A DNA stretch of 36,108 nucleotides from assembly GCA_019114065.1 (NCBI GenBank), contig DXGF01000141.1, positions 1-36,108 of the forward strand, read 5' to 3'. How positions within the stretch are numbered: position 1 is the first letter of the stretch; every line of letters begins with the position of its first letter. This stretch comes from Candidatus Dorea gallistercoris. Its GTDB lineage: Bacteria > Bacillota > Clostridia > Lachnospirales > Lachnospiraceae. Below the pieces are notes generated by a model. It did no database searches and was not told the DNA's origin. It worked only from the letters and a program-made list of their open reading frames with translations. A program made the position numbers and the translations under genes. Shown here in pieces: positions 19,733 through 36,004 of the stretch.

Positions 19733-21820
19733 TTATTTCGCCACATCCTTCATGCTGAAGGAGAATCTTCCCATCTTGTCCTTTCCTAAGCATACGACTT
19801 TCACCACATCGCCCAGGGTCAGCACATCTTCCACATGGTTCACTCTCTCCTTGGCCAGCTTGGAGATGTGCACCATTCCCTCTTTGCCCGGAGCGAACTC
19901 CAGGAAGGCACCGAATTCCTTGATGCTGACTACCTTTCCTTCCAGGACTTGTCCCGCCTCAAAGTCGGTGACGATGATATGAATCAGCTTGCGGGCCTCT
20001 TCCATACTGTCCGCATCGGTTCCACAGATGGATACGGAGCCGTCGTCCTCGATATCGATCTTCACGCCGGTCTGCTCGATGATGGCGTTGATGGTCTTGC
20101 CTCTCTGTCCCACCACATCGCCGATCTTCTGGGGATCGATCTGCATCTGGATGATCTTCGGCGCGTAAGGTCCTACTTCCGGTCTCGGTTCTGCGATGGT
20201 CTTTGCCATCACTTCGTCCAGGATATACAGTCTGGCCTTCCTTGTAGCCGCGATCGCCTCCTCGATGATCGGTCTGGTCAGACCGTGGATCTTGATATCC
20301 ATCTGGATCGCGGTGATCCCCTCATGGGTTCCAGCCACCTTGAAGTCCATATCTCCAAAGAAATCTTCCAGTCCCTGGATATCGGTCAGCACCAGATAGT
20401 CATCGTCTGTCTCTCCCGTCACCAGTCCAGCTGAGATACCTGCCACCGCGGTCTTGATCGGAACCCCCGCCGCCATCAGTGACATGGAAGAAGCGCATAC
20501 ACTGGCCTGAGACGTAGAGCCGTTGGACTCGAAGGTCTCGGATACCGTACGGATCGCGTAAGGGAATTCTGTCTCATCCGGCAGTACCGGAAGCAGGGCC
20601 CGCTCTGCCAGCGCTCCGTGTCCGATCTCCCGCCGTCCCGGTCCTCTGGAGGGCCTGGTCTCTCCTACAGAGTAGGATGGGAAATTATAATGATGCATAT
20701 ATCTCTTGGAGGTCTCTGCCTCGTCCAGTCCGTCCAGTCTCTGGGCTTCCGCCAGAGGCGCCAGCGTGGTGATCGTACAGATCTGTGTCTGTCCCCGGGT
20801 AAACATAGCGGAGCCATGGACTCTCGGGATCAGATCTACTTCCGCCGCCAGAGGCCGGATCTGATCGATGGCTCTTCCATCGGGACGCTTGTGATCCTTC
20901 AAGATCATCTTGCGCACCGTCTTCTTCTGGTACTGATAAACCGCCTCTCCAAGCACTTCCAGCCAGTCTTCCTTCTCCGCGAAGGCTTCTTCCAGCTTCT
21001 CTGTGATCTGACGGATATTTTCCTCCCTTACCTGCTTTTCATCGGTAAACACGGCCTCTTCCATCTGAGCCGGAGGCACGATCTCTTTAATCGCCTCAAA
21101 CAGTTCTTCCGGAACCGCGCAGCTTTCATAAGAATGTTTGGGCTTGCCGCACTCCGCCACAATGGTCTCAATGAAAGCGATCACCTTCTGGTTCAGCTCA
21201 TGAGCCGCGAAGATGGCGTCGATCATCTGCTGTTCCGGCACTTCCTCCGCGCCAGCCTCAATCATGATCACCTTCTCTTTGGTAGAAGCAACCGTCAAAG
21301 ACAGCTTGGACACTTCTCTCTGGGCCGCCGTCGGATTGAACACGAATTCTCCGTCCACCAATCCTACCTGGGTAGAAGAGATCGGTCCGTCAAAAGGAAT
21401 ATCCGAGATGGTGGTGGCGATGGCCGCGCCCAGCATAGCGGTCAGCTCCGGTGAGCAGTCCTGATCTACAGACAGGACCAGATTTTCCAAGGTCACATCA
21501 TTGCGGTAATCCTTGGGGAACAACGGACGCATAGGACGGTCGATCACACGGCAGGTAAGGATTGCGTTCTCAGACGCCTTACCCTCTCTCTTGTTGAATC
21601 CTCCCGGGATCTTTCCTACCGCGTACAGACGCTCGTTATACTCCACACTGAGCGGGAAAAAGTCGATCCCTTCCCTTGGTTTCTCCGATGCGGTGGCTGT
21701 ACAGAGCACAGTCGTGTCTCCGTAGTGCATAAGCACCGCTCCATTTGCCTGCTTCGCCACCCGGTCCACATCGACACGCAGGGTCCTGCCGGCAAGTTCC
21801 ATTTCATACTTTTTGTACAT
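19733..21820 (-). CDS. pnp: Polyribonucleotide nucleotidyltransferase (PNPase)
   Basis: Two RNase PH domains, KH domain (IIQMQIDPQKIGDVVGQRGKTINAIIEQTG), S1 domain (GQVLEGKVVSIKEFGAFLEF). Start MYKKYEMELAGR with RBS AAAGGAGA. Confidence 0.97.
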   Translation of the reverse strand: MYKKYEMELAGRTLRVDVDRVAKQANGAVLMHYGDTTVLCTATASEKPREGIDFFPLSVEYNERLYAVGKIPGGFNKREGKASENAILTCRVIDRPMRPLFPKDYRNDVTLENLVLSVDQDCSPELTAMLGAAIATTISDIPFDGPISSTQVGLVDGEFVFNPTAAQREVSKLSLTVASTKEKVIMIEAGAEEVPEQQMIDAIFAAHELNQKVIAFIETIVAECGKPKHSYESCAVPEELFEAIKEIVPPAQMEEAVFTDEKQVREENIRQITEKLEEAFAEKEDWLEVLGEAVYQYQKKTVRKMILKDHKRPDGRAIDQIRPLAAEVDLIPRVHGSAMFTRGQTQICTITTLAPLAEAQRLDGLDEAETSKRYMHHYNFPSYSVGETRPSRGPGRREIGHGALAERALLPVLPDETEFPYAIRTVSETFESNGSTSQASVCASSMSLMAAGVPIKTAVAGISAGLVTGETDDDYLVLTDIQGLEDFFGDMDFKVAGTHEGITAIQMDIKIHGLTRPIIEEAIAATRKARLYILDEVMAKTIAEPRPEVGPYAPKIIQMQIDPQKIGDVVGQRGKTINAIIEQTGVKIDIEDDGSVSICGTDADSMEEARKLIHIIVTDFEAGQVLEGKVVSIKEFGAFLEFAPGKEGMVHISKLAKERVNHVEDVLTLGDVVKVVCLGKDKMGRFSFSMKDVAK

Positions 21821-21848
21821 AGTGGTCTCCTTTATCATTTTTTCTTAA

Positions 21849-21933
21849 GGGAAGGGAGCGCCGAAACTACTGAAAAATACACTTTGGGTCTGGAAAATGT
21901 ACTTTTCAGTGGTCTCGGAGTCTCTCCCTGCCC
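21849..21933 (-). promoter_or_regulatory. Long stem-loop in the pnp 5' leader
   Basis: Inner arms 21861-21880 / 21899-21918 (17 Watson-Crick, 2 G.U, 1 mismatch in 20 positions); outer arms 21849-21858 / 21924-21933 (9 of 10 pairs). Confidence 0.8.
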
Positions 21934-21945
21934 ATAATCTTATTT

Positions 21946-21974
21946 ATTGTATCATATCTGCCGGGATAACGCAA
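21946..21974 (-). promoter_or_regulatory. Candidate sigma-A promoter of pnp
   Basis: Minus strand TTGCGT-N17-TACAAT with extended -10 TGA (TATGATACAAT). Confidence 0.6.
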
Positions 21975-22000: not shown

Positions 22001-22040
22001 GATCAACAAAAAAGCATCCCCAAAGGGGATGCCTTTGATC
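22001..22040 (-). terminator. Rho-independent terminator of rpsO
   Basis: Minus strand GCATCCCC-TTT-GGGGATGC-TTTTTT, with outer GATCAA/TTGATC pairing; immediately downstream of the rpsO stop. Confidence 0.9.
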
Positions 22041-22045
22041 AAAGA

Positions 22046-22312
22046 TTATTTTCTCAGTCCGAGTCTCTCGATCAGGGAACGATATCTCTCGATATCAACC
22101 TTTTTCAGGTACGCCAGAAGTCCTCTTCTCTGTCCTACCATCTTCAGAAGTCCTCTTCTGGAATGATGATCCTTCGGATTGTTCTTGAAGTGCTCGGTCA
22201 GATCGTTGATCCTGGCGGTCAGGATCGCGATCTGCACCTCTGGTGAACCTGTGTCTCCCTCGCTTCTTCCGTACTCAGCGATAATCTGTTCTTTCTGTTC
22301 TTTTGAGATCAT
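22046..22312 (-). CDS. rpsO: 30S ribosomal protein S15
   Basis: [88 protein letters not shown]. Confidence 0.98.
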
Positions 22313-22346
22313 GCTCGTCTCCTCCTTCATACAAACTCTTTGAAAC

Positions 22347-22393
22347 GCCGGGCATTAAGTAATGGTCGGAGTTTCCGATTACCGAACACCGGC
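22347..22393 (-). promoter_or_regulatory. Structured rpsO leader, candidate S15 autoregulatory element
   Basis: Minus strand: GCCGG...CCGGC closing helix enclosing GTAAT/ATTAC and CGGA/TCCG helices, between the rpsO promoter and RBS. Confidence 0.5.
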
Positions 22394-22407
22394 TTTGCCA
22401 CTAGCAA

Positions 22408-22436
22408 AGTATAGCATACCCATTGGCCCGCTTCAA
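22408..22436 (-). promoter_or_regulatory. Candidate sigma-A promoter of rpsO
   Basis: Minus strand TTGAAG-N17-TATACT with extended -10 TGC (TATGCTATACT). Confidence 0.7.
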
Positions 22437-22446
22437 GTATTTTTTC

Positions 22447-23346
22447 TCAAAAACCCTGAAAATATGCTTTTCCGCTAGCGATATCCCGGTCAATGCAGGC
22501 TTTCATCTCCCCGATATCCCCAAACTTTTGTTCCGGTCTGCGAAACTCCAGAAGTTCGATCTGTACTTCTTTTCCATAGGCATCTTCCTCGTAGTCAAAA
22601 AGAAAACTCTCCGCAAGGACTCTCTCCTCCGCGGAGACCGTCGGCTTGACCCCCACATTGGTGATCCCCTCGTAGTCCCTGCCGTCCACCCGAATCCGGC
22701 TGAAATACACGCCTCTGGGCGGTATGATCTTCGCCGCAGGCCACGCCACGTTAAACGTAGGAAACCCGAGGGTCCGCCCCAATCTCCTGCCATGTTCCAC
22801 CACGCCTTCGATGCCGTAAGGATAACCCAGAAGCTTGTCCGCCAGGGCAATCTCCCCCGCTTCCATCAGCTCCTTGATATAGGTGCTGCTGATGATCCTG
22901 CCCTGGTAGCGTTCCTTCTCCAGGACGATAGCCTCATAGCCATATATCCCCTCGTACTTCTTCAGCATATCGGCGTCGCCGCCCTGTCCATATCCAAAAT
23001 GGAAATCCGTTCCAACCACCACATATCTGGCGTGGAACACACCGCAGATGATCTCCTTGATGAATTCTTCCCCGCTCATCTGCCGAAATTCCTCTGAGAA
23101 CGGACATTCCACCAGGTAATCCATAGAATCCTGAAGATGGGCCGCCCGCTCTTTTTTGGTCATAAGAATCCCGGTCCGCTTCATATCAAAGGCACAGACA
23201 GCCGCCCGGACTTTCTCTGTCTCTCTCAGCTGAGCCACTTTGCGGATCAAGGTCTGATGGCCCAGATGGAGCCCGTCAAACTTGCCGAATGTGACCGCTG
23301 ATCTTGCGATGTCTTTATAATGTTCAAGTCCTGCTAAGTATTCCAT
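22447..23346 (-). CDS. ribF: Bifunctional riboflavin kinase / FAD synthetase
   Basis: AVTFGKFDGLHLGHQTLIRKV, GTDFHFGYGQGGD, ISSTYIKELMEAGEIALADKLLGYPYGIEGVVEHGRRLGRTLGFPTFNV, GVYFSRIRVDG. Confidence 0.95.
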   Translation of the reverse strand: MEYLAGLEHYKDIARSAVTFGKFDGLHLGHQTLIRKVAQLRETEKVRAAVCAFDMKRTGILMTKKERAAHLQDSMDYLVECPFSEEFRQMSGEEFIKEIICGVFHARYVVVGTDFHFGYGQGGDADMLKKYEGIYGYEAIVLEKERYQGRIISSTYIKELMEAGEIALADKLLGYPYGIEGVVEHGRRLGRTLGFPTFNVAWPAAKIIPPRGVYFSRIRVDGRDYEGITNVGVKPTVSAEERVLAESFLFDYEEDAYGKEVQIELLEFRRPEQKFGDIGEMKACIDRDIASGKAYFQGF

Positions 23347-23357
23347 AATCCTTCCCT

Positions 23358-24266
23358 TCAGCTGCCGCAAAACATTTTTACAACTTTATACTCTTGTGCG
23401 TCCCCGCAGTAACGGTACAAGGCAAGGAAATTCCCTCTATCATCGTACAGTCTGACCACGGCGCCGTCATCCACCGGGACTTTCGTCCGAGTCATCATCC
23501 CCTGGCGGAGCCCGTTTCCGTTGAGCGCCAGTTTCTCCCACTGACTTTTCACCTGTATGGCAGGATATTCCAAGAACAACCAGTCAACCGGTCTTAGGAT
23601 TTCCTTTAGACTTCCCTGACTTTTCCGCTGTCCGATCTCTTCCAGAGTATGGGCATCCTCCTGCTCAAAAGGACCTGCCTTCGTCCGCTTCAGATCTTCC
23701 ATGCACCCGAAGCAGCCCAAATCCCTTCCGATATCGTCGCATAACGTTCGGATATAAGTCCCCTTGGAACAGCGCACTCTCAGCCTGACTCTCGGAGCGC
23801 GAAACTCCAGGATACAGATCTCATAGATCTGCACCCTTCTTGCTTTCCGCTCTACCGTCTTCCCCTCCCTTGCCAGTTCATAGAGCTTCTTCCCGTTTAC
23901 CTTTAGAGCCGAATACATGGGAGGGATCTGATCGTAGGCTCCTATGTAGTTTCGCACCGTCTCTTCCAGCTTCTCCCGATCGATGCCGGCCGTATCTCCT
24001 TCTTCCAATACCGTTCCGGTGATATCCTGTGTATCTGTCCGCATTCCCAGAAGGAGCACCGCCTCATAGGTCTTATCCTGATCTGTCAGAAGATCGCACA
24101 CCTTGGTGGCACGTCCCAGACAGACCGGAAGTACGCCCTCCGCATCCGGGTCCAGCGTCCCGGTATGACCGATCTTGCGCTGGCCCAGGATGCCTCTTAA
24201 TTTTGCCACCACATCATGGGAGGTAAACCCTTTCTCTTTATACACATTCAGGATCCCACTGATCAT
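23358..24266 (-). CDS. truB: tRNA pseudouridine(55) synthase
   Basis: GILNVYKEKGFTSHDVVAKLRGILGQRKIGHTGTLDPDAEGVLPVCLGRATKV; RCSKGTYIRTLCDDIGRDLG. Confidence 0.97.
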   Translation of the reverse strand: MISGILNVYKEKGFTSHDVVAKLRGILGQRKIGHTGTLDPDAEGVLPVCLGRATKVCDLLTDQDKTYEAVLLLGMRTDTQDITGTVLEEGDTAGIDREKLEETVRNYIGAYDQIPPMYSALKVNGKKLYELAREGKTVERKARRVQIYEICILEFRAPRVRLRVRCSKGTYIRTLCDDIGRDLGCFGCMEDLKRTKAGPFEQEDAHTLEEIGQRKSQGSLKEILRPVDWLFLEYPAIQVKSQWEKLALNGNGLRQGMMTRTKVPVDDGAVVRLYDDRGNFLALYRYCGDAQEYKVVKMFCGS

Positions 24267-25225
24267 AACGGCTCTCCCAGCTGGTCCGCGATCAGGCCGG
24301 ACAGATTATTCAGCACGTCATGGGGCGTCCCGGCCATGGTAAATCCCGCCGCCCTTTTATGTCCGCCGCCGCCCAAATACTGGGCCACTTTGCTCACATC
24401 CACCTGCTCGTTGGACCGCAGACTGACTTTATACACGCTGGGCCTTAGCTCGTACATGAAAATGGCCACTTCCACTCCCCGGGTGTCCCTGAGGTGGCTG
24501 ACGATGCCATCCAAGGCGCTGGGCTCTACACCGTAGAACTCCATCTCTCTCCCCCGGATGTAAGAGGCTATGCATTTCCCGTCCATGAACAGTATACTCT
24601 CCATGAGCGCGCGCCCCAGCACCTGGTTCTGGGTATAACTTTTTTCCACATACGTCTTGCGGATCAGTCCGGGGGCATCCACCCCTTTCTCCATCAGATC
24701 CGCCGCCGCCCGCAGTGTGGAAGGGGAAGTGCAGGTATACTGGAAGACGCCGGTATCATGGACAATACCCAGATACAGCGCCTCCGCCACAGGAAGCGTG
24801 ATCTTCTCCTTATCGACCAGATCATAGACCAGCTCCGAAGTAGAACTTGCCTCGGGAACCACATAATTTTCTTCCCCAAACCCCGTGTTGCTGATATGGT
24901 GATCCACGCAGAGGGTGTGGGCCGCCTGCTCAAAAAGAACCCGGGAGAATCCAAGCCTCTCTTCGTCTCCGCAGTCCAGGCAGATGAACAGATCATACTT
25001 CTGGTCTCCCGGCACCTCATGCCGGATCTCATCGGACCGTTTCAGGAACTGATAAGACCGGGGAATCTCTTCCAAATAGATATCTGTCTTCTTCCCGCTG
25101 TAATTCTCCAGAATATAGAGGTACAGTCCCATACAGGAACCGGTACAGTCTCCGTCTGGTCTCTCGTGGCCCCCGATGGCGATCGTATCTGCCTGCTCGA
25201 TCATTCTATTCAACATCGTTCTCAC
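24263..25225 (-). CDS. nrnA: DHH/DHHA1 phosphoesterase (NrnA-like oligoribonuclease / pAp phosphatase)
   Basis: IGGHERPDGDCTGSCMGLYLYI, LCVDHHISNTGFG, YLGGGGHKRAAGFTM (DHHA1); conserved position between rbfA and truB. Confidence 0.9.
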   Translation of the reverse strand: MRTMLNRMIEQADTIAIGGHERPDGDCTGSCMGLYLYILENYSGKKTDIYLEEIPRSYQFLKRSDEIRHEVPGDQKYDLFICLDCGDEERLGFSRVLFEQAAHTLCVDHHISNTGFGEENYVVPEASSTSELVYDLVDKEKITLPVAEALYLGIVHDTGVFQYTCTSPSTLRAAADLMEKGVDAPGLIRKTYVEKSYTQNQVLGRALMESILFMDGKCIASYIRGREMEFYGVEPSALDGIVSHLRDTRGVEVAIFMYELRPSVYKVSLRSNEQVDVSKVAQYLGGGGHKRAAGFTMAGTPHDVLNNLSGLIADQLGEPL

Positions 25226-25589
25226 CTTCCGTCTCCATTTGACCCGTTACTTCTTCTATCTTTTTAGACATATTTACACCATATTCAATGGATTGGTCCA
25301 ATATGAAATGGATCTCCGGGGTGTTGCGCATATTTAAAGTCCTGGCCAGTTCCCGCCGGATATATCCTTCCGCGCTCTGTAGCCCCCGGATTGTCTCCTG
25401 CTGGGCCTTCTCATCTCCAAGCACACTGATATACGCCTTACAGGTCTTCAGATCAGGGGCCACCTCAGCAGCCACCACAGAGGTCCATGGGGCCACCCTC
25501 GGATCCTTCAACCCGCCTCTTATGATGCTGCTCAGCTCCCGCTGGACTTCCACATTCACTCTGGTGTTTTTGATACTTCTTTTCCGCAA
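25206..25589 (-). CDS. rbfA: 30S ribosome-binding factor A
   Basis: NTRVNVEVQRELSSIIRGGLKDPRVAPWTSVVAAEVAPDLKTCKAYISVLGDE; start ambiguous (TTG at 25589 after GAAGGAAG, or 25613). Confidence 0.93.
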   Translation of the reverse strand: MRKRSIKNTRVNVEVQRELSSIIRGGLKDPRVAPWTSVVAAEVAPDLKTCKAYISVLGDEKAQQETIRGLQSAEGYIRRELARTLNMRNTPEIHFILDQSIEYGVNMSKKIEEVTGQMETEGENDVE

Positions 25590-25650
25590 TTTTCTTCCTT
25601 CTTTCTTTCTCAAAGCAGGATGCTTTTGAAAGGCCGTCTGAGATTCAGGA

Positions 25651-28407
25651 CTATCTTGGAACCTCTACCATCTTGAACGCCTCTACCTGGTCGCCTTCCT
25701 TCACATCATTAAAGCTGGAAAACACAAACCCGCACTCATATCCTGCCCTTACTTCTTTTACATCGTCCTTAAACCGCTTCAGAGAGGCGAGGGATCCCTC
25801 GTAGATCACGATGCCGTCCCGGATGATCCGGGCAGCGCAGTCCCGCTCGAAGGTTCCGTCCAGCACATAGGAGCCGGCGATGGTCCCCACGCCGGAGGCC
25901 TTGAACAGCTGGCGCACCTCCGCGTGCCCCAGGACCTTCTCCTCGAAAACGGGATCCAGCATCCCCTTCATGGCCGCTTCCACATCCTCGATGGCGTTGT
26001 AGATCACCCGATAGAGACGGATATCCACGCCTTCCCGCTCCGCGGTCTCCTTGGCCGTCGCGTCCGGACGCACATTGAATCCGATGATGATCGCATTGGA
26101 TGCGGAGGCCAGGCTCACGTCCGACTCATTGATCGCTCCCACGCCGCCGTGAATGATCTTTACGACAACCTCATCATTGGACAGCTTGAGAAGGCTCTGC
26201 TTGATCGCCTCCACAGATCCCTGCACATCCGCCTTTACTACGATGCCAAGTTCCTTTAAGTTGCCCTCCTGGATCTGGGTAAACAAATCATCCAGGGAAA
26301 GCTTTGACTTGGTATCTTCCAGCAGTTTCACTTTGCTCTGGGAGATAAAGGTCTCGGCAAAGCTTCTTGCCTCTTTATCATTTCCGCAGCCAACCAGCAC
26401 CTCTCCCGCATTCGGCACATCGTCCAGTCCCAGAATCTCTACCGGCATAGACGGTCCTGCCTCTTTGACCCGGCGTCCTTTATCATCCATCATGGCCCGT
26501 ACCTTTCCGTGGGCCGCGCCTGCCGCCACCGCGTCTCCGATCCGCAGGGTTCCTTTCTGTACCAGCACCGTTGCCACGGGACCTCTTCCTTTATCCAGCT
26601 CCGCCTCCAGCACAAGTCCTCTTGCCCGGCGGTTGGGATTGGCTTTCAGTTCCATGACTTCTGCCGTCAGAAGGATCATCTCCATCAACTCATCCAGACC
26701 TTCTCCGGTCTTGGCGGATACCGGAACGAAGATGGTGCTTCCTCCCCAGTCTTCCGGAATCAGCTCATACTCGGTCAGTTCCTGTTTCACCCGCTCTACA
26801 TTGGCGCTTGGCTTATCAATCTTGTTGACCGCCACGATGATCTCCACTCCCGCGGCCTTCGCGTGGTTGATAGCCTCGATAGTCTGTGGCATCACACCGT
26901 CGTCCGCGGCTACTACCAGGATGGCAATGTCTGTGGAGCTGGCTCCCCGCATACGCATGGCGGTAAACGCCTCGTGGCCCGGAGTATCCAGGAAGGTGAT
27001 CTTCTCCCCGTTTCGCTCCACCACGTAAGCTCCGATATGCTGGGTAATCCCGCCCGCTTCTCCGCCGATCACATTGGTATGGCGGATGGCGTCCAGTAGA
27101 GAAGTTTTTCCGTGGTCTACGTGTCCCATGACACAGACTACCGGAGGACGTTTCTTCATCTTCTTCTCGTCCTCTTCTTCTTCCTTCAGAAGCTCCTCGA
27201 TCACATCTACCACTTCTTCTTTCTCGCAGAGAACATCGAACTCCAGCGCGATCTCTTCCGCGGTCTCATAATCGATCTCCTGGTTTACCGTCACCACCTT
27301 GCCCTGCATAAAGAGTTTCTTTACGATCACAGACGGAACCACCTTCATCTTGTCTGCCAGCTCCTTGATCGTCAGCACTTCCGGGATCGTGATGGATTTG
27401 ATCTCCTCCTCCTGCTTCTGAGCTTTCGGCTGGGGTTTCTGAAGCTGAGGCTTCTGGTCTGACTTCTGCTTCTTTCCCTTTGGCTTCCTGTCTTCTTCTT
27501 CGCGACGATAATCTTTCTTCTTATGATCGTCTTTCCCTTTTCCTTTATTCCTCTGAGGCTTCTGTGCCGGCGTCTCCGGAGCCGGGATACTGCTCTGGTT
27601 CCTTCTTGTCTCTCCCCGTCTCTCTCCGTGGCTCCTCTCGCCTGCCCCGCGGCCCTGGTTCCTCTCGCCGCCCTTTCCCTGGCCTCTCTCGCTGGCGCCC
27701 CGGTTCTGGCCTCTGTCCTCTCCTCGCCTCTGGCCTCTCTCGCCTGCATTCCGGTCATTTCTTCCTCTTTCACCGGCGGCTCTCTCTCCGCTCCCTTTTT
27801 CACTGGCGGTCTTTGCCTGTGGCTTCTCATTGGGACGGCCCGTCTGAGAAGACTTTGGGGCGTGATCAGCCGGTTTCTTCCCGGAAGCCTGAGGTTGAGA
27901 CTGCGCCTGGACCTGAGCAGTGGTTTCCTGCTCCGCTGGCTGTGGCTGTTTTTTCTCCAGGGCCTTTTCAAACGCCTTCTCCACAGACCTCTCAGTCGGA
28001 CGCGCTTTTTCCGCGCCCGGCCGGGCGGGCTGCCCCGGACGGTTCTGCGGTTTCGCCGGACGGCCGTTATTCACCTGCATAGGCCTTCCCTGGGAGATCC
28101 CCGGCTTCCCGCCTCCTGCCGGACGCCTGCCCTGGCGCGCTCCATTCTGGGTATTCTGAGGTCTGAAGACATGGACGATATTCTTTTTCTTTGGTGTTTC
28201 CCCCGCGGGTTTCTCTGCCTTTTCAGGGGCCTTTCCAGTCTCTGCCCCGCTCTTGTCAAAAGCGGCTTTTACCATTTTTACTTCCTCATCTTCCAGCGCG
28301 CTCATATGGTTTTTCACTTCTATCTTTTTCTCCGCAAGAAACTCCACCAGTTCCTTGCTGGGAACGTCTAATTCTTTCGCTAACTCATATACTTTCATCT
28401 TCGACAT
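25651..28407 (-). CDS. infB: Translation initiation factor IF-2
   Basis: [25 protein letters not shown]-terminal domain, G domain ([48 protein letters not shown]). GGAGG RBS upstream of 28407. Confidence 0.97.
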
Positions 28408-28421
28408 ACACACTACCTCCA

Positions 28422-28745
28422 TTATGCAATTGTATTCTCTTCTGTGTCCAAATGTTTCCTGATTCCTTTTGCAAACCCCTCATCCATGACCGCAAGGGAT
28501 GCCCGGAACTCTTTTCCCATTGCATGCCCCAAGGTATCTTTATCTTTGTAAAAATAGATGGGTACTCTATAAAAATCACACATATTCTGGAATTTCTTCC
28601 TGGTATTCTCTGATGCGTCCCCCGCCACGATCACCAGCGCGGCCCGGCCGGATTTTACCTCTTTCTCTGTGCAGAACTCTCCGCTTGCCACTTTCCCGGC
28701 CTTCACAGCCAGACCGATCAATGACAGCGCCTTACTCTTTTTCAA
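28422..28745 (-). CDS. Ribosomal L7Ae family protein (YlxQ-like)
   Basis: [66 protein letters not shown] start at 28745 proposed (AAGGAG RBS); the track ORF to 28898 just reads through ylxR. Confidence 0.88.
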
Positions 28746-29010
28746 GCGATTCCATCTCCTTTTCCAGGGATTCATATACCTCCGGCGGGATCGCCTGGCC
28801 AAAGGAACGCTCCAATCCTTTGCATTTCCTTGCTTTTTCCAGGCACTCTCGGTTGGGACACAGATAAGCTCCCCGGCCATTTTTCTTCCCGGTAGCATCT
28901 AACAGGAACTCCTGCTCAGATGTGCGGATGACCCGGATCATCTCTTTCTTGCTGCGCATTTCCTGACAACCCACGCATTTCCGCAACGGTATCTTTTTAT
29001 TTTTACTCAA
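28732..29010 (-). CDS. ylxR: YlxR family protein (RnpM-like)
   Basis: KKIPLRKCVGCQEMRSKKEMIRVIRTSEQEFLLDATGKKNGRGAYLCPNRECLEKARK; between nusA and ylxQ. Confidence 0.94.
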   Translation of the reverse strand: MSKNKKIPLRKCVGCQEMRSKKEMIRVIRTSEQEFLLDATGKKNGRGAYLCPNRECLEKARKCKGLERSFGQAIPPEVYESLEKEMESLEKE

Positions 29011-29019
29011 ATGATCACC

Positions 29020-30249
29020 TTATTCCTCTTCTGACTCCTGATCTCCATCTGCTTCTTCATCATAAACGGCTTCTTTGGACGCTTCTTCATAAGACTCATC
29101 ATAGCCTTCTTCGTAAGCCCCTTCTTCGTAAGACTCATCGTAGCCTTCTTCATACATTTCTTCTTCAAACACGCCTTCGCTCATTTCCATATAATTTTCC
29201 GGCAGTTCTCCTGATTCGATGGCCTGAGTTTCACTCTTGATGTCGATCTTATATCCTGTCAGCCGCGCGGCCAGTCTGGCGTTCTGTCCTTCTTTTCCGA
29301 TGGCAAGCGAAAGCTGGTAGTCCGGCACGATGACGCTTGCCGTCTTCTCATCCGGATCCGCCATAACAGAGATGACCTTCGCCGGGCTTAACGCGTTCTC
29401 GATCAGGATCGCCGGGTTATCACTCCAATTGATGATGTCGATCTTCTCTCCCCGCAATTCATTGACGATGGCATTGACTCTGGCTCCGTTCATTCCCACG
29501 CAGGCGCCTACCGGATCCACATCCGGATCATTGGACCATACCGCGATCTTGGTCCTGCTGCCGGCTTCTCTGGCAATGCTCTTGATCTCCACAATTCCGT
29601 CTCTGACTTCCGTCACCTCTGACTCAAACAGACGCTTTACTAATTCCGGATGGGTACGGGACACTAAGATCTTTGGTCCTTTTGTGGTGTTCTTTACTTC
29701 TACCACATACAGCTTGATCCGCTCTGTCGGCTTAAACACCTCTCCTTTTACCTGCTCGTTTTCTGTCAGCATGGCGTCTGCCTTACCCAGATTGATGCTG
29801 ATGTTTCTTCCCACATAGCGCTGTACGATTCCCGTCACGATATCTTTTTCTTTCTCAAAATACTGATCGTAGATCACCTTGCGCTCTTCTTCCCGGATCT
29901 TCTGCAGGATCAGGTTCTTCGCGTTCTGGGTGGCGATACGTCCAAAGGATTTAGATTCAATAGGAATCCGCACAATATCGCCGATCTCATAAGTACTGTC
30001 GATCTCTTTTGCCTCTTCCAGGCTGATCTGCTCCAATTTATCTTCCACTTCTTCTACTACCTCTTTCTCGGCGTAGAGCTGGTAGTCGCAGGTCTCCCGG
30101 TCCATGATCAATTTGATATTGTCGGCTTTCCCAAAATGGTTCTTACAGGCATTTAAAAGAGAATTCTCGATCGCGTCCAGCAGGGTCTCTTTGCTGATGT
30201 CTTTCTCCTTCTCCAGTATGTTCAATGCTTCCAGTAATTCCGTATTCAT
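29020..30249 (-). CDS. nusA: Transcription termination/antitermination protein NusA
   Basis: MNTELLEALNILEKEKDISKETLLDAIE, S1 domain, KH domains (DPVGACVGMNGARVNAIVNELRGEKIDIINWSDNPAILIENALSPAKV); unusual acidic C-terminal tail. Confidence 0.97.
   Translation of the reverse strand: MNTELLEALNILEKEKDISKETLLDAIENSLLNACKNHFGKADNIKLIMDRETCDYQLYAEKEVVEEVEDKLEQISLEEAKEIDSTYEIGDIVRIPIESKSFGRIATQNAKNLILQKIREEERKVIYDQYFEKEKDIVTGIVQRYVGRNISINLGKADAMLTENEQVKGEVFKPTERIKLYVVEVKNTTKGPKILVSRTHPELVKRLFESEVTEVRDGIVEIKSIAREAGSRTKIAVWSNDPDVDPVGACVGMNGARVNAIVNELRGEKIDIINWSDNPAILIENALSPAKVISVMADPDEKTASVIVPDYQLSLAIGKEGQNARLAARLTGYKIDIKSETQAIESGELPENYMEMSEGVFEEEMYEEGYDESYEEGAYEEGYDESYEEASKEAVYDEEADGDQESEEE
29082..29154 (-). 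repeat. Tandem 39-nt repeat encoding the acidic NusA tail (YEEGYDESYEEGA)
   Basis: 29082-29115 and 29121-29154 match at 31 of 34 positions, period 39 nt. Confidence 0.85.
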
Positions 30250-30267
30250 TCGTTTCTCCTCCTTAAT

Positions 30268-30735
30268 CTAAAAATCAAATGCCAGGCGGATCAAAGCGAT
30301 ATCGCCTTTGTCAAATGTTTTTTCCGTCTCGTCTGCAAGCGTAATGGTTACTGTATCTTCATCGTAATCTTTTAAGATTCCGGTAAATTCTTTCTGTTTG
30401 TCGATCATGCGGTAGGTCTTGACTTCCACCTCTTCTCCCAGGCTCCTCTTGAAATCCTTCTCCTTCTTCAAAGGACGTCCAAGCCCTGGGGAACTCACTT
30501 CCATGATGTAGGCGTCTTCGATAAAATCTTCCTGATCCAGGAGATCCGACAGTCTTCTGCTGACTTTCTCACAGTCGTCGATGCTGATCCCGCCGGGCTT
30601 ATCGATGTAAGACCTGAGATACCAGGTGCTTCCCTCCTTGACATACTCCACATCTACAAGCTCAAATCCATATTCGTCCACAATGGGCTGCAGAAGCTGT
30701 TCTGTTTTCTGCTCGTAAACTTCTCTTTTAGACAA
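30268..30735 (-). CDS. rimP: Ribosome maturation factor RimP
   Basis: PIVDEYGFELVDVEYVKEGSTWYLRSYIDKPGGISIDDCEKVSRRLSDLLDQEDFIEDAYIMEVSSPGLGRPLKKEKDF. TTG start at 30735 chosen, since AAGGAGGAATTTTACATTG is a clear RBS/start and the longer ORF starts upstream of that RBS. Confidence 0.94.
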   Translation of the reverse strand: MSKREVYEQKTEQLLQPIVDEYGFELVDVEYVKEGSTWYLRSYIDKPGGISIDDCEKVSRRLSDLLDQEDFIEDAYIMEVSSPGLGRPLKKEKDFKRSLGEEVEVKTYRMIDKQKEFTGILKDYDEDTVTITLADETEKTFDKGDIALIRLAFDF

Positions 30736-30759
30736 TGTAAAATTCCTCCTTACCAACAA

Positions 30760-30787
30760 AGAAGAGTGAACTTTCGTTCACTCTTCT
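30760..30787 (-). promoter_or_regulatory. Perfect GAAA-tetraloop hairpin in the rimP leader (attenuator, terminator or mRNA stabiliser)
   Basis: Minus strand AGAAGAGTGAAC-GAAA-GTTCACTCTTCT (12 bp), followed by TTGTTGG and then the rimP RBS. Confidence 0.7.
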
Positions 30788-30813
30788 GCCGGATTTCTAT
30801 GTAACTGTAGGTT

Positions 30814-30842
30814 AGTATAGCACTTCTCTCATGGAAAATCAA
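30814..30842 (-). promoter_or_regulatory. Candidate sigma-A promoter of the rimP-nusA-infB operon
   Basis: Minus strand TTGATT-N17-TATACT with extended -10 TGC (GTGCTATACT). Confidence 0.7.
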
Positions 30843-30861
30843 GGGTTTTCGGGAAATCTCC

Positions 30862-31755
30862 TTATATTTTCCCTTCCTTAAACGCCATCATCATGGCGTT
30901 GGTCAGGCTTAAGTCTTCTTCCTTCACCGGCATAACCTCCCGCTCAAACCACTCTGCCATGGCCAGTTCTTCCTGGTCGATGGAGATTGCATCTTCTCCA
31001 TCCAGTTCGCAGAAAAATCCCATCAGCAACGTATCGGAGAAGGACCAGGGCTGGCTCTTGAAGTAGGTGATGTTCTTCACCTTCAGGCCCACCTCTTCCA
31101 TCACTTCCCGGCGCACCGTCTCTTCAATGGTCTCGCCGATCTCATTGAAGCCGGCCAGAAGGGCGTAGTCCTTAAAATCACGTCTCGCGTACTTTGACAT
31201 GAGGATCTTACTGCCATGGGTCACGCCGATGATCACCGCCGGACAGATTTTGGGAAACTCCATCAGGCCGCAGGAGGGACATTTCATCATCCGCTCTTTC
31301 TCATCTGGGACCATAGGTTTCCCACAGCGCCCGCAGAAACGATGGCTTTCATACCAGCGGAACAACTGCCATCCGGTGATTCCGGCAAACCGCAGGTATT
31401 TAGGATCTGCCCTGCGGAACAACCAGTTGTCCTCCCAGGTGAATCCATCCGCCTCTAGACTGTGTCCGTCCGCTTCCGGGTGGAGGTAGAACCGGATCTC
31501 TCCAAGAGCAGTTCCTTTCCCGTCAGCCCCGCCGGGACACCGGATAGAAAACAGATAGACCGCGCCCTGGTACAGCGGCTCTCTCTCCTTCTCCCACCGC
31601 TTTTCCGCCTCCTGGAAAGTAGGGAAACAAATCTCTTTCCCCTCCCGCTTCACCAGGGTCCGGGTTCCCTCATAGCACAGCAGGAAGTCCTGCGCCTGCG
31701 GCAGGACCGGGTGATAGGCGTTATCATATTGATATGGCTGTATATCCTGTATCAT
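30862..31755 (-). CDS. nudC: NADH pyrophosphatase-like Nudix hydrolase with zinc ribbon (NAD+ diphosphatase)
   Basis: Zinc ribbon FCGRCGKPM...MKCPSCGLMEFPKICPAVIIGV; Nudix box GFNEIGETIEETVRREVMEEVGL. Confidence 0.9.
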   Translation of the reverse strand: MIQDIQPYQYDNAYHPVLPQAQDFLLCYEGTRTLVKREGKEICFPTFQEAEKRWEKEREPLYQGAVYLFSIRCPGGADGKGTALGEIRFYLHPEADGHSLEADGFTWEDNWLFRRADPKYLRFAGITGWQLFRWYESHRFCGRCGKPMVPDEKERMMKCPSCGLMEFPKICPAVIIGVTHGSKILMSKYARRDFKDYALLAGFNEIGETIEETVRREVMEEVGLKVKNITYFKSQPWSFSDTLLMGFFCELDGEDAISIDQEELAMAEWFEREVMPVKEEDLSLTNAMMMAFKEGKI

Positions 31756-31759
31756 GATC

Positions 31760-33997
31760 CTACCTCGCTTTCGTTCCTGTTCCGTCCCGCTTCGCTGCCT
31801 TAAGGCGGTTCAGGGTGATCTCCCGGTCTCCGAACTGAACCTTTATCTCTGTGCCTTCTTCAAACAGATAGACCTCTTCCAGCTCGTCCTTTTTCTTCAG
31901 ACGGATGCCCCGCACCCCAACGGCTCCTTTTTTCTTCTCTGAGACCTCCTCCGCGCTAAACCGCAGGAAATAGCCTTCCCTTGTCCGCAGCACCACCTGC
32001 TGGCTGTCGTTTACCACCTGCACGCTCACCACCTGGTCATCCGGCTGCAGTTTTGTGGCGGCGATGGTCCGTTTGGATACCTGGAATTCGGTTCCCGACA
32101 CCTTCTTGATCATTCCCTGCTTGGTGGCAAATAAAAGCTGGGCAAAGCGCATCTGCTCCCCGTCGCAGATATAGACGATCTCTTCCTGGGTGCTGTCGTA
32201 GTTGCTCACATTGTCGATGGGCTGGCCCTTATCCCGGAACTTTCCAAAAGGAAGATCCAGCACTTTGACTTGATGCATCTTTCCATCCGCCGTGAAAATA
32301 CAAAGTTTTCCTGTATTCAGACAGCTGATCACGTATTTGTTCTCTGTGTCCGCGGCCTCTTTGTTTCTCTCATAGGCGGTCCGGTCTAGGGTCTTGGCGT
32401 AGCCGAATCGGTCCATCAGGAAGATCACTTCCTGCTCCTCGATCTTCTTCTCCTCGAACACCGCTTCCTGGGCGTTCTCGATCTGGGTCCGGCGTTTCCA
32501 GGAGAACTCTTTCTTCAACTGGTCCAGATCCTGGATGATCACATCCGCCATAGACTCGTAGTTGTTCAGGATATCCTCATAGCGCTCGATATTCTTCAAG
32601 GTCTCTTCGTGTTCCTTCATCAATGCTTCGATCTCCAGGCCGATCAGACGGTAGAGCCGCATCTCCAGGATCGCTGTGGCCTGCCGCTCGGTAAACCGGA
32701 GCATGGCCGCCATCTTCTTAGAAATGCTGGATTTGAACTTAATATTCTCTGTCACGCCGTTTGTGAGACAGGCCTTGGCATCCTTCACCGACTGGCTGCC
32801 CCGCAGGATCTCGATGATCAGGTCGATCACGTCGCAGGCCTTGATCAGGCCTTCCTGGATTTCTTTTTTCTCTTTTTCTTTGGCTAAAAGGGTCTGGTAT
32901 TTCCGGGTGGCCAGTTCAAACTGGAAGTCCACGTGATGCTCGATGATCTTCTTTAAGCCCATGGTCTCCGGCCGGCCGTCCGCCACTGCCAGCATATTTA
33001 CCCCAAAGGTGTCCTCCAGCCGGGTCTTCTTGTAGAGCATGTTGATGAGGTTGTCCGCGTCCGCGCCCCGTTTCAGCTCGATCACGATGCGAATGCCTTC
33101 CTTGGAGGACTGGTTGGAGATATCGGTGATATCACTGGTCTTCTTGGACTCTACTAAGCCATAGACATCGTTGAGGAACTTCCCGATGCCGGTTCCGATC
33201 ATGGTATAAGGAATCTCTGAGATCACGATCTGACTGCGGCCGCCTTTTAATTCTTCTACTTCCACCTTGCCCCGCAGCTTGATCTTGCCTGTCCCGGTCT
33301 CGTAGATCTGGAGCAGATCGTCTTTATTTACCACGATCCCGCCGGTGGGGAAATCCGGTCCCTTGATATATTTCATCAACTGTCGGGTGCTGATCTCACT
33401 ATTTTTCATATAGGCCTTGACACCGTCGATCACTTCCCCCAGATTGTGGGTGGGAATACTGGTAGCCATCCCCACCGCGATGCCCTCCGCCCCGTTGACC
33501 AGAAGATTCGGGACTCTCACCGGAAGCACTTCCGGCTCTTTCTCCGTCTCGTCAAAATTGGGGACAAAGTTGACAATATCCTTGTCCAGATCCTGTAGGT
33601 AGGCTTCCTGGGTGATCTTCGCTAAGCGGGCTTCCGTGTAACGCATGGCCGCAGCTCCATCTCCCTCGATAGAGCCGAAGTTTCCGTGGCCGTCCACCAG
33701 TACCGTTCCCTTTTTAAAGTCCTGGGCCATTACCACCAGGGACTCATAGATAGAGCTGTCCCCATGGGGATGGTATTTACCCATGGTATCTCCCACGATA
33801 CGGGCGCATTTCCGGTAGGGCCGGTCGGACTTAAGGCCCAGCTCATGCATATCGTAAAGGGTCCTTCTCTGGACCGGCTTCAATCCGTCCCGGACATCTG
33901 GCAGGGCCCGGGCTACGATCACGCTCATGGCGTAATCAATATAGGATTTCTTCATCACATCCGAATATTCGGTTCTTATGATCTGTGTTTGTTCCAT
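31760..33997 (-). CDS. Type IIA DNA topoisomerase subunit A (topoisomerase IV ParC-like / gyrase A family)
   Basis: 745 aa; [59 protein letters not shown] (active-site Tyr). No canonical GyrA-box (QRRGGKG) seen in the C-terminal region. Confidence 0.9.
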
Positions 33998-34012
33998 GAT
34001 CTTTCTTCTCCT

Positions 34013-35935
34013 TTAGATATCCAGTTCCGCTTCCAGGGCATTTTCATAGATAAAAGTCCGCCTTGGCGGCACCTCTGTGCCCATCAGCATCTCCGTCACG
34101 CTGGAGGCCATCCTGGCGTCCTCGATCTCCACCAGCTTTAACACCCGGGTTTCCGGGTTCAGGGTCGTCTCCCAGAGCTGGGAAGCGTCCATCTCTCCCA
34201 GTCCTTTGTATCTTTGTAACGTAAAGGGACCATCATGGGTCTTCCGGTAACGCTCCAGGGCCTGATCGTCATAGAGATATTCTTCTTCCCCTTTCTTGGG
34301 CATGGCTTTATACAGGGGAGGCATAGCGATATACACATGTCCCTCGTAGATCAGTTCCGGCATAAACCGATAGAATAAGGTCAAAAGCAGGGTGGAGATA
34401 TGCGCCCCGTCCACGTCTGCGTCTGCCATGATGATGATCTTATCATAGCGCAGTTTGCTGATATCAAAGTCATTGCCATAGCCCTCCGAGAATCCACAGC
34501 CAAAGGCGTTGATCATAGTCTTGATCTCCGCGTTGGCCAGGATCTTGTCAATGCTGGCTTTCTCTACGTTCAGGATCTTTCCCCGGATCGGCAGGATGGC
34601 CTGATACATCCGGTCTCTGGCCGTTTTTGCGGATCCGCCCGCCGAATCTCCCTCTACAATGAAGATCTCACATTTCGACGGATCCCGGCTCTCACAGTTG
34701 GCCAGCTTCCCGTTGCTGTCAAAGGAGTATTTCTGTTTGGTCAAAAGGTTGGTCTTGGCCTTCTCTTCTGTCTTGCGGATCTTGGCCGCCTTCTCCGCGC
34801 AGCCGATGACTTTTTTGAGCGTCTCCAGATTCCGGTCAAAATACCGCACGATCTCATCTCCCGCCACCTTGCTGACCGCTCTGGCCGCATCCGGGTTGTC
34901 CAGCTTGGTCTTGGTCTGACCCTCGAATCTGGGGTCCGGATGCTTGATGGAGACGATGGCCGTCATGCCGTTCCTTACATCAGCACCGGTAAAGTTGGCG
35001 TCTTTCTCCTTCAAGATTCCCAATTCCCTGGCGTACTGGTTGATCACCGTGGTAAACGTGGTCTTGAATCCGGTCAGATGGGTCCCTCCCTCACCGTTAT
35101 AGATGTTGTTGCAGAATCCCAGTACATTTTCGTGAAATTCGTTGACATACTGGAAGACCACTTCCACCTGTATGCCCTCAGCCTCTCCTCTAAAATATAC
35201 CGGCTCATGGACCGTTTCTTTCTTGGAATTCAGGTCCCGGATAAAGCCCAGGATTCCTTCCGGCTCATGGTAGACGATATGCTCCTTCGCCTCGCCTCGC
35301 AAATCTTCAAAAATAATGGTGAGCTCCGGATTCAGATAAGCAGTCTCGTGCATCCGGCTTTTCACTTCTTCCGCCCGGAACCGGGTCTTCTCGAAAATCG
35401 TGTCGTCCGGCAGGAAATTGATCTTGGTGCCGGTCTTCCTGGTCTTGCCGATCTTGGGCAGAAGCCCGTCCTCCAGCTCCACCACCGGTATCCCCCGCTC
35501 ATACCGGTCGTGGTGGATGTACCCGTCCCGGCTCACCTCTACATCCATATAAGCAGACAAGGCGTTGACCACCGAAGAGCCCACACCGTGGAGCCCGCCG
35601 CTGGTCTTATAGACAGAATCGTCGAATTTCCCCCCCGCGTGAAGAGTGGTATATACGACACGCTCCGCGGACACACCTTTTGCGTGCAGATCTACCGGCA
35701 CCCCCCGTCCATTGTCAGATACGGTAGCAGAGCCATCCTTCTCCAGCGTCACGCGGATCTCGCTGCAGTACCCAGCCAGATGTTCATCCACAGAATTGTC
35801 CACGATCTCGTAGATCAGATGATTCAATCCTTTGGTAGACACGCTTCCGATATACATGCCCGGCCGCTTGCGCACCGCCTCCAGGCCTTCCAATATCGCA
35901 ATACTGTCCGCATCATATGTACTCTTCTTCGCCAT
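34013..35935 (-). CDS. Type IIA DNA topoisomerase subunit B (topoisomerase IV ParE-like / gyrase B family)
   Basis: GLEAVRKRPGMYIGSVSTKGLNHLIYEIVDNSVDEHLAGYC, GGLHGVGSSVVNALS, IVEGDSAGGSAK, DADVDGAHISTLLL. Start set to MAKKSTYDADS. Confidence 0.92.
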   Translation of the reverse strand: MAKKSTYDADSIAILEGLEAVRKRPGMYIGSVSTKGLNHLIYEIVDNSVDEHLAGYCSEIRVTLEKDGSATVSDNGRGVPVDLHAKGVSAERVVYTTLHAGGKFDDSVYKTSGGLHGVGSSVVNALSAYMDVEVSRDGYIHHDRYERGIPVVELEDGLLPKIGKTRKTGTKINFLPDDTIFEKTRFRAEEVKSRMHETAYLNPELTIIFEDLRGEAKEHIVYHEPEGILGFIRDLNSKKETVHEPVYFRGEAEGIQVEVVFQYVNEFHENVLGFCNNIYNGEGGTHLTGFKTTFTTVINQYARELGILKEKDANFTGADVRNGMTAIVSIKHPDPRFEGQTKTKLDNPDAARAVSKVAGDEIVRYFDRNLETLKKVIGCAEKAAKIRKTEEKAKTNLLTKQKYSFDSNGKLANCESRDPSKCEIFIVEGDSAGGSAKTARDRMYQAILPIRGKILNVEKASIDKILANAEIKTMINAFGCGFSEGYGNDFDISKLRYDKIIIMADADVDGAHISTLLLTLFYRFMPELIYEGHVYIAMPPLYKAMPKKGEEEYLYDDQALERYRKTHDGPFTLQRYKGLGEMDASQLWETTLNPETRVLKLVEIEDARMASSVTEMLMGTEVPPRRTFIYENALEAELDI

Positions 35936-35974
35936 TGTCTGTGAATCCTTTCCTATACTTTCCCATACTGGGAA

Positions 35975-36004
35975 TATATTAGCACAAAATATGGTATTAA
36001 TCAA
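35975..36004 (-). promoter_or_regulatory. Candidate sigma-A promoter of the topoisomerase subunit B gene
   Basis: Minus strand TTGAAT-N18-TAATAT with extended -10 TGC (GTGCTAATAT). Confidence 0.55.

Follow-up and report, generated by a model that had tools for sequence, protein, structure and literature searches.

The pnp locus of Candidatus Dorea gallistercoris

The window, a 36,108-nt stretch of DNA from Candidatus Dorea gallistercoris, contains an ordinary run of minus-strand genes (22046-36004) leading into pnp, which encodes PNPase. This run includes nusA (29020-30249) and infB (25651-28422), followed by genes reading as a DHH phosphoesterase and, by position, as truB and ribF, and then by rpsO and pnp, with the subunits of a type II topoisomerase encoded further upstream of the nusA-to-pnp genes. 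A long hairpin sits between the terminator of rpsO (22036-22010) and the pnp start (21820), and the PNPase encoded downstream of it is complete, with KH and S1 domains as identified by Pfam. An RNase III with a dsRBD plus a Mini-III-like protein are also encoded in the genome. The features of the locus, in the direction of transcription, are the following, with the basis of each assignment in brackets.

22046-22330, minus strand: rpsO, ribosomal protein S15 (Pfam)
22010-22036, minus strand: intrinsic terminator of rpsO
21946-21974, minus strand: putative pnp promoter, TTGCGT-N17-TACAAT (sequence; relatives are enriched in -10-like hexamers at equal distance)
21924-21933, minus strand: outer helix, 5′ strand, GGGCAGGGAG (fold; own versus swapped flank complementarity in 77 leaders)
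21919-21923, minus strand: 5′ side of the asymmetric internal loop between outer helix and core (fold; most relatives' folds are equally asymmetric)
21906-21918, minus strand: conserved core, 5′ arm, CCGAGACCACUGA (alignment; position counts in 123 elements)
21894-21905, minus strand: apical helix, 5′ arm, variable in sequence and covarying (pair counts)
21886-21893, minus strand: apical loop of 8 nt (fold; very variable in length in relatives)
21874-21885, minus strand: apical helix, 3′ arm (pair counts)
21861-21873, minus strand: conserved core, 3′ arm, UCAGUAGUUUCGG (alignment; position counts)
21849-21858, minus strand: outer helix, 3′ strand, CUCCCUUCCC, anti-Shine-Dalgarno-like (fold; duplex test against the Shine-Dalgarno sequence)
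21827-21833, minus strand: pnp Shine-Dalgarno sequence AAAGGAG, outside the hairpin (sequence)
19733-21820, minus strand: pnp, PNPase, ATG start at 21820-21818 (Pfam: two RNase PH domains, KH and S1)

An earlier note on this DNA had assigned the pnp promoter to TTGCGT-N17-TACAAT, and this sequence is indeed present at 21974-21946, but its -35 hexamer agrees at only three of six positions and a consensus scan reports a different, overlapping pair, so the pnp transcription start is treated here as a prediction. In relatives, TATAAT-like -10 hexamers cluster 21-40 nt upstream of the hairpin core (30 observed versus 10 expected), a zone immediately upstream of the outer helix, and many leaders gave no clear hexamer in the same scan. 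Because of these leaders, a position of the hairpin at the 5′ end of the pnp transcript can be called probable and no firmer. The available main text of the transcription start site map of Clostridium phytofermentans (PMC5171806) does not mention pnp.

Fold and anatomy of the leader hairpin

Folding of the pnp-sense RNA (minus strand, 21830-21950) gave -45.7 kcal/mol compared to -19.6 ± 3.1 kcal/mol for dinucleotide shuffles (z = -8.4), with 0 of 200 shuffles matching its energy, which confirms the long stem-loop that had been proposed for the pnp leader. The coordinates proposed for it on the minus strand proved exact, both for the outer strands (21933-21924 and 21858-21849) and for the inner arms (21918-21906 and 21873-21861). 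The helix reaches further than had been drawn, however, so that the apical loop is predicted to be 8 nt and not the 18 nt claimed, and the predicted helix comprises approximately 34-37 pairs. The claimed strand bias is real as well, since the plus strand of the hairpin region folds less well (-39.6, z = -4.6), and a covariance model built from relatives likewise prefers the pnp-sense strand, with 77.8 bits against 53 on the opposite strand. The element is present as a single copy in this genome.

In Lachnospiraceae leaders, an outer helix of variable, covarying sequence is joined through an asymmetric internal loop, longer on its 5′ side, to a core of 12 pairs (CCGAGAC-C-ACUGA / UCAGU-A-GUUUCGG) with one conserved mismatch and one conserved G·U, and the core is followed by an apical helix that is again variable and covarying. 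The loop plus apical length between the core arms ranges from 21 to 247 nt across relatives. Among 123 distinct elements, 121 retain the core G·U (G5·U9′), almost all have a non-Watson-Crick combination at position 8 (C-A in 82, U-U in 19, and C-U in 13), and U8′-U10′ are essentially invariant with A or G as partners. This invariance is overstated because both the search patterns and the model are in part biased towards the core: GUUUC was demanded by the seed-set pattern, and at least two U, besides G3 and C7, by the later finder. No such bias underlies the covariation of the outer and apical helices. Beyond the earlier note, the analysis adds the conserved core sequence with its mismatch, the resemblance of the outer 3′ strand to an anti-Shine-Dalgarno sequence, and the spread of the element across the family.

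Two leaders depart from this anatomy. One (L032) has approximately 245 nt between the core arms, with a large, MITE-like loop insertion that carries its own long inverted repeat, while the core and outer helix are intact, so that the loop appears free to take inserts. Another (L022) has only a 3′ core arm and outer 3′ strand approximately 95 nt upstream of pnp, and looks broken or misassembled because the matching 5′ arm was not found upstream.

Covariation and selection on the RNA

An alignment of 48 leaders over the 24 pairs of the core and apical helices was used to assess covariation. In total, 92.2% of the cells were paired, compared to only 39-47% in slid-structure controls, and changes on both sides were seen at 14 of the 24 pairs. 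Double-changed cells numbered 159 against 49 in shuffles, with none of 500 shuffles as high, and RNAalifold independently predicted the same helix. These pair statistics ignore kinship; several pairs nonetheless show all four Watson-Crick types. As the variable internal loop prevented column alignment of the outer helix, this helix was tested by swapping flanks between species, which lowered its complementarity from 19.8 with own flanks to 12.7 (77 leaders; the highest of 5000 swaps reached 14.2). Apical pairing was similarly 8.9 of 10 for own and 6.3 for swapped partners. The stem is clearly conserved and covarying among related pnp leaders, the point on which the earlier note had staked its proposal, as seen in the double-changed cells and in the genome counts given below (207 of 299). 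These comparisons indicate that the hairpin structure is selected at the RNA level in the relatives.

Distribution in the Lachnospiraceae

PNPase loci were collected from 60 relatives in a whole-genome set and from 80 named GTDB records, with a few species occurring in both, and the genera sampled include Blautia, Roseburia, Faecalimonas, Mediterraneibacter, Lacrimispora, Kineothrix, Pseudobutyrivibrio, Anaerocolumna and Lachnobacterium. All informative GTDB record names are Lachnospiraceae, some others being titled just 'Eubacteriales' or 'Clostridiales bacterium'. The core was found in approximately 84% of the 109 leaders long enough to judge, 78 by pattern and 14 more by covariance model, and is missing from approximately 16. 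Leaders either keep the element or lack it outright, since covariance scores in the second set are bimodal, at 42 bits or above or below 19. When the covariance model built from the 48 leaders (R1) was applied with strict filters to 299 genomes of the family, one per genus, the element was present in at least 207, with 92 lacking it under those filters, so roughly two thirds or more of the sampled Lachnospiraceae genera carry it. Most genomes list two matches and, where both are listed, these are the two strands of one place. In the order-wide sample, weak matches were obtained outside the family in only four genomes (E 1e-5 to 2e-3), and in the phylum-wide sample clear positives numbered 4 of 399 genomes, every one from the family, with two further weak matches outside it. 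A homologous element outside the family was therefore rejected, the matches there being weak only and one of them (G056) lying 525 kb from pnp.

The element was immediately followed by pnp at all 49 loci inspected. Usually rpsO lies just upstream, and at four loci or more (L122, L136, L148, and L149) the fetched flank contained no rpsO. Since pnp still follows the element at these loci, the element belongs to pnp. As many family members do not carry the element, the control that it may exert would be dispensable in them or replaced. One close relative that lacks it (L005, genome G007), whose pnp is 89% identical to that of Candidatus Dorea gallistercoris, has a TATAAT box near pnp and, in the interval from rpsO to pnp, a very long hairpin. 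In other families of the order, long hairpins of 30-49 pairs (z -4.4 to -8.9, no T-run after) lie upstream of pnp in 5 of 20 sampled families (L172, L174, L177, L179, and L186). Their sequences are unrelated to the Lachnospiraceae core and they may be independent pnp leader elements, although they are a lead to a wider habit only, because the z-scores include terminators and coding sequence.

Possible pairing of the outer 3′ strand with the Shine-Dalgarno sequence

In a duplex test with a generic Shine-Dalgarno (SD) sequence, the outer 3′ strands of the 123 elements bound at -4.99 kcal/mol compared to -3.51 kcal/mol for their own shuffles, and the difference persisted when 53 sequence clusters were compared (-4.18 vs -3.03, p = 0.0004). 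The apical arms had no excess SD complementarity in the same test. The mean predicted unpaired probability of the SD was 0.62 in full leaders, falling to 0.39 when the RNA begins at the 3′ arm and to 0.47 when the outer strand of that shortened RNA was shuffled. Since the shuffled strand still gives 0.47, the outer 3′ strand accounts for no more than a portion of the predicted occlusion. In the leader of Candidatus Dorea gallistercoris itself, shuffling the outer strand made no useful difference (0.30 own, 0.25 shuffled). Taken over all elements the anti-SD effect is real, but it is modest in size and many species do not show it. Our hypothesis from these models is that loss of the 5′ strand could let the outer 3′ strand occlude the pnp ribosome site. 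Occlusion of that site by the intact hairpin was rejected, because 29-226 nt separate the end of the core arm from the start codon and full leaders leave the SD largely unpaired.

Proposed mechanism and alternatives

On the whole of this analysis, we consider it rather probable that the Lachnospiraceae pnp 5′ leader contains a cis-regulatory RNA through which PNPase limits its own expression. The best and most economical account, we infer, is cleavage by RNase III followed by PNPase autoregulation, which is supported by the position of the hairpin, the length of its helix, the RNase III genes of the genome and the published repression of pnp by RNase III. The long pnp-leader hairpin and the presence in the host of both RNase III and a KH/S1 PNPase are features of an E. 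coli-type leader, and the predicted helix is of sufficient length for RNase III. PNPase is reported to be repressed by RNase III in B. burgdorferi, S. coelicolor, S. pyogenes, and C. jejuni (PMC8708148), and a 22-nt pnp leader fragment in S. pyogenes is taken in PMC6431027 to support the E. coli mechanism for a Gram-positive organism.

Under RNase III/PNPase autoregulation, transcription would start a few nucleotides upstream and the hairpin would form at the 5′ end, where RNase III would cut the long helix. The cut 5′ strand would remain annealed until PNPase, entering at the new 3′ end, degrades it, and the mRNA with its freed outer 3′ strand would then be silenced by decay, by pairing of that strand with the SD, or by both, so that more PNPase would mean less pnp expression. 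RNase III has little sequence requirement, so the nearly invariant core exceeds what an E. coli-type model predicts; the core and its mismatch may set the cleavage position or be read by one of the two nucleases. A more elaborate form, which we regard as tentative and on balance doubtful, is a cleavage-triggered translational switch. Here the 5′ strand of the outer helix would mask the anti-SD strand in the intact leader, the core would be recognised sequence-specifically as double-stranded RNA and the helix cut, PNPase would then remove the 5′ strand, and the anti-SD strand so unmasked would close the pnp ribosome site.

The near-invariance of the core within a duplex, including G5·U9′, the mismatch at position 8 and U8′-U10′, would not be required by RNase III alone, and could instead mark a site bound sequence-specifically by a regulator, whether PNPase itself, Mini-III or some other RNA-binding protein, that would control translation or decay with no obligatory cleavage by RNase III. 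We judge this unlikely, given that the invariance is exaggerated by the way elements were found and that the long flanking helices, selected for pairing, are unneeded by a compact protein site. Decay of mRNA in Gram-positive bacteria depends on the 5′-to-3′ RNase J (PMC3997798), and a hairpin predicted a few nucleotides from the 5′ end would fit a stabiliser that blocks RNase J and pyrophosphohydrolase and makes the pnp mRNA long-lived. The conserved sequence, the conserved mismatch and the specific link to pnp are all unneeded for such a stabiliser, and the covariance model gives a single location in the Candidatus Dorea gallistercoris genome, so this reading appears improbable. An operator for ribosomal protein S15 in an rpsO-pnp operon is suggested by the usual presence of rpsO just upstream, but is very improbable with a terminator standing between rpsO and the element and with the element staying beside pnp at the four loci without rpsO in their flank. 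The element is an inverted repeat, and the insertion in the L032 loop is palindromic, yet a DNA-level operator palindrome, mobile-element end or terminator has next to no likelihood, given the wide range of arm spacing, G·U pairs conserved on the pnp-sense strand only, the single copy and the lack of a T-run. A terminator or attenuator was rejected for that missing T-run, the sole terminator there being that of rpsO, and a mobile repeat was rejected for the single copy.

The element is a well-supported, uncatalogued regulatory RNA candidate in the transcript of an enzyme central to RNA decay, in a major family of gut bacteria. With it, one could readily test whether autoregulation of PNPase arose more than once using leaders of unrelated sequence, and its core raises the question of which protein reads a specific sequence within double-stranded RNA. 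Hundreds of genomes could be annotated in a single pass with the covariance model.

Comparison with known pnp leaders

By sequence and structure, the element is an uncatalogued RNA family. No Rfam 15 family scored above its gathering threshold at the element, in the window or at the loci of 20 relatives, and no description of the element in Lachnospiraceae was found in openly readable papers, a 2017 list of 224 motifs being judged via Rfam 15 only. A separate match to rliD, a Listeria antisense sRNA, in one relative (L088:2977-3146, minus strand; 53.2 bits against a gathering score of 50) is antisense to the pnp start and coding region, off the hairpin, and likely reflects coding-sequence homology and no sRNA.

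The nearest named motif in role is Actino-pnp (RF01688; Weinberg et al. 2010, PMC2864571), likewise a conserved structured RNA in the pnp leaders of one bacterial group. It belongs to Actinomycetales, however, and its model does not match the element, with no hit in the window at the gathering score or at E ≤ 10 and none in the genomes of 31 relatives in a search run without a positive control. In Streptomyces coelicolor, a hairpin just upstream of pnp and after the rpsO terminator is cleaved by RNase III (PMC5872136), although this is a separate, actinobacterial hairpin compared here by description only. RNase III also cleaves the pnp 5′ UTR hairpin of S. pyogenes, another Gram-positive leader, and the short fragment released from the leader is believed to remain annealed to the mRNA (PMC6431027, which cites Le Rhun et al. 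2017); the comparison is one of description and not of sequence, and the available part of PMC6431027 describes no conserved family-wide motif.

The E. coli pnp leader, whose RNase III/PNPase autoregulation was established by Jarrige et al. 2001 (as described in PMC6431027, PMC5371410, and PMC8708148), shares with the Lachnospiraceae leader the rpsO-pnp order, a long leader hairpin upstream of the ribosome site and an intergenic promoter, which is predicted in Lachnospiraceae. The mechanism is proven in E. coli and inferred in Lachnospiraceae, and the Lachnospiraceae stem differs in its conserved sequence core with a mismatch and in its anti-SD-like outer 3′ strand. The element is most likely a variant of this known kind of pnp-leader regulation.
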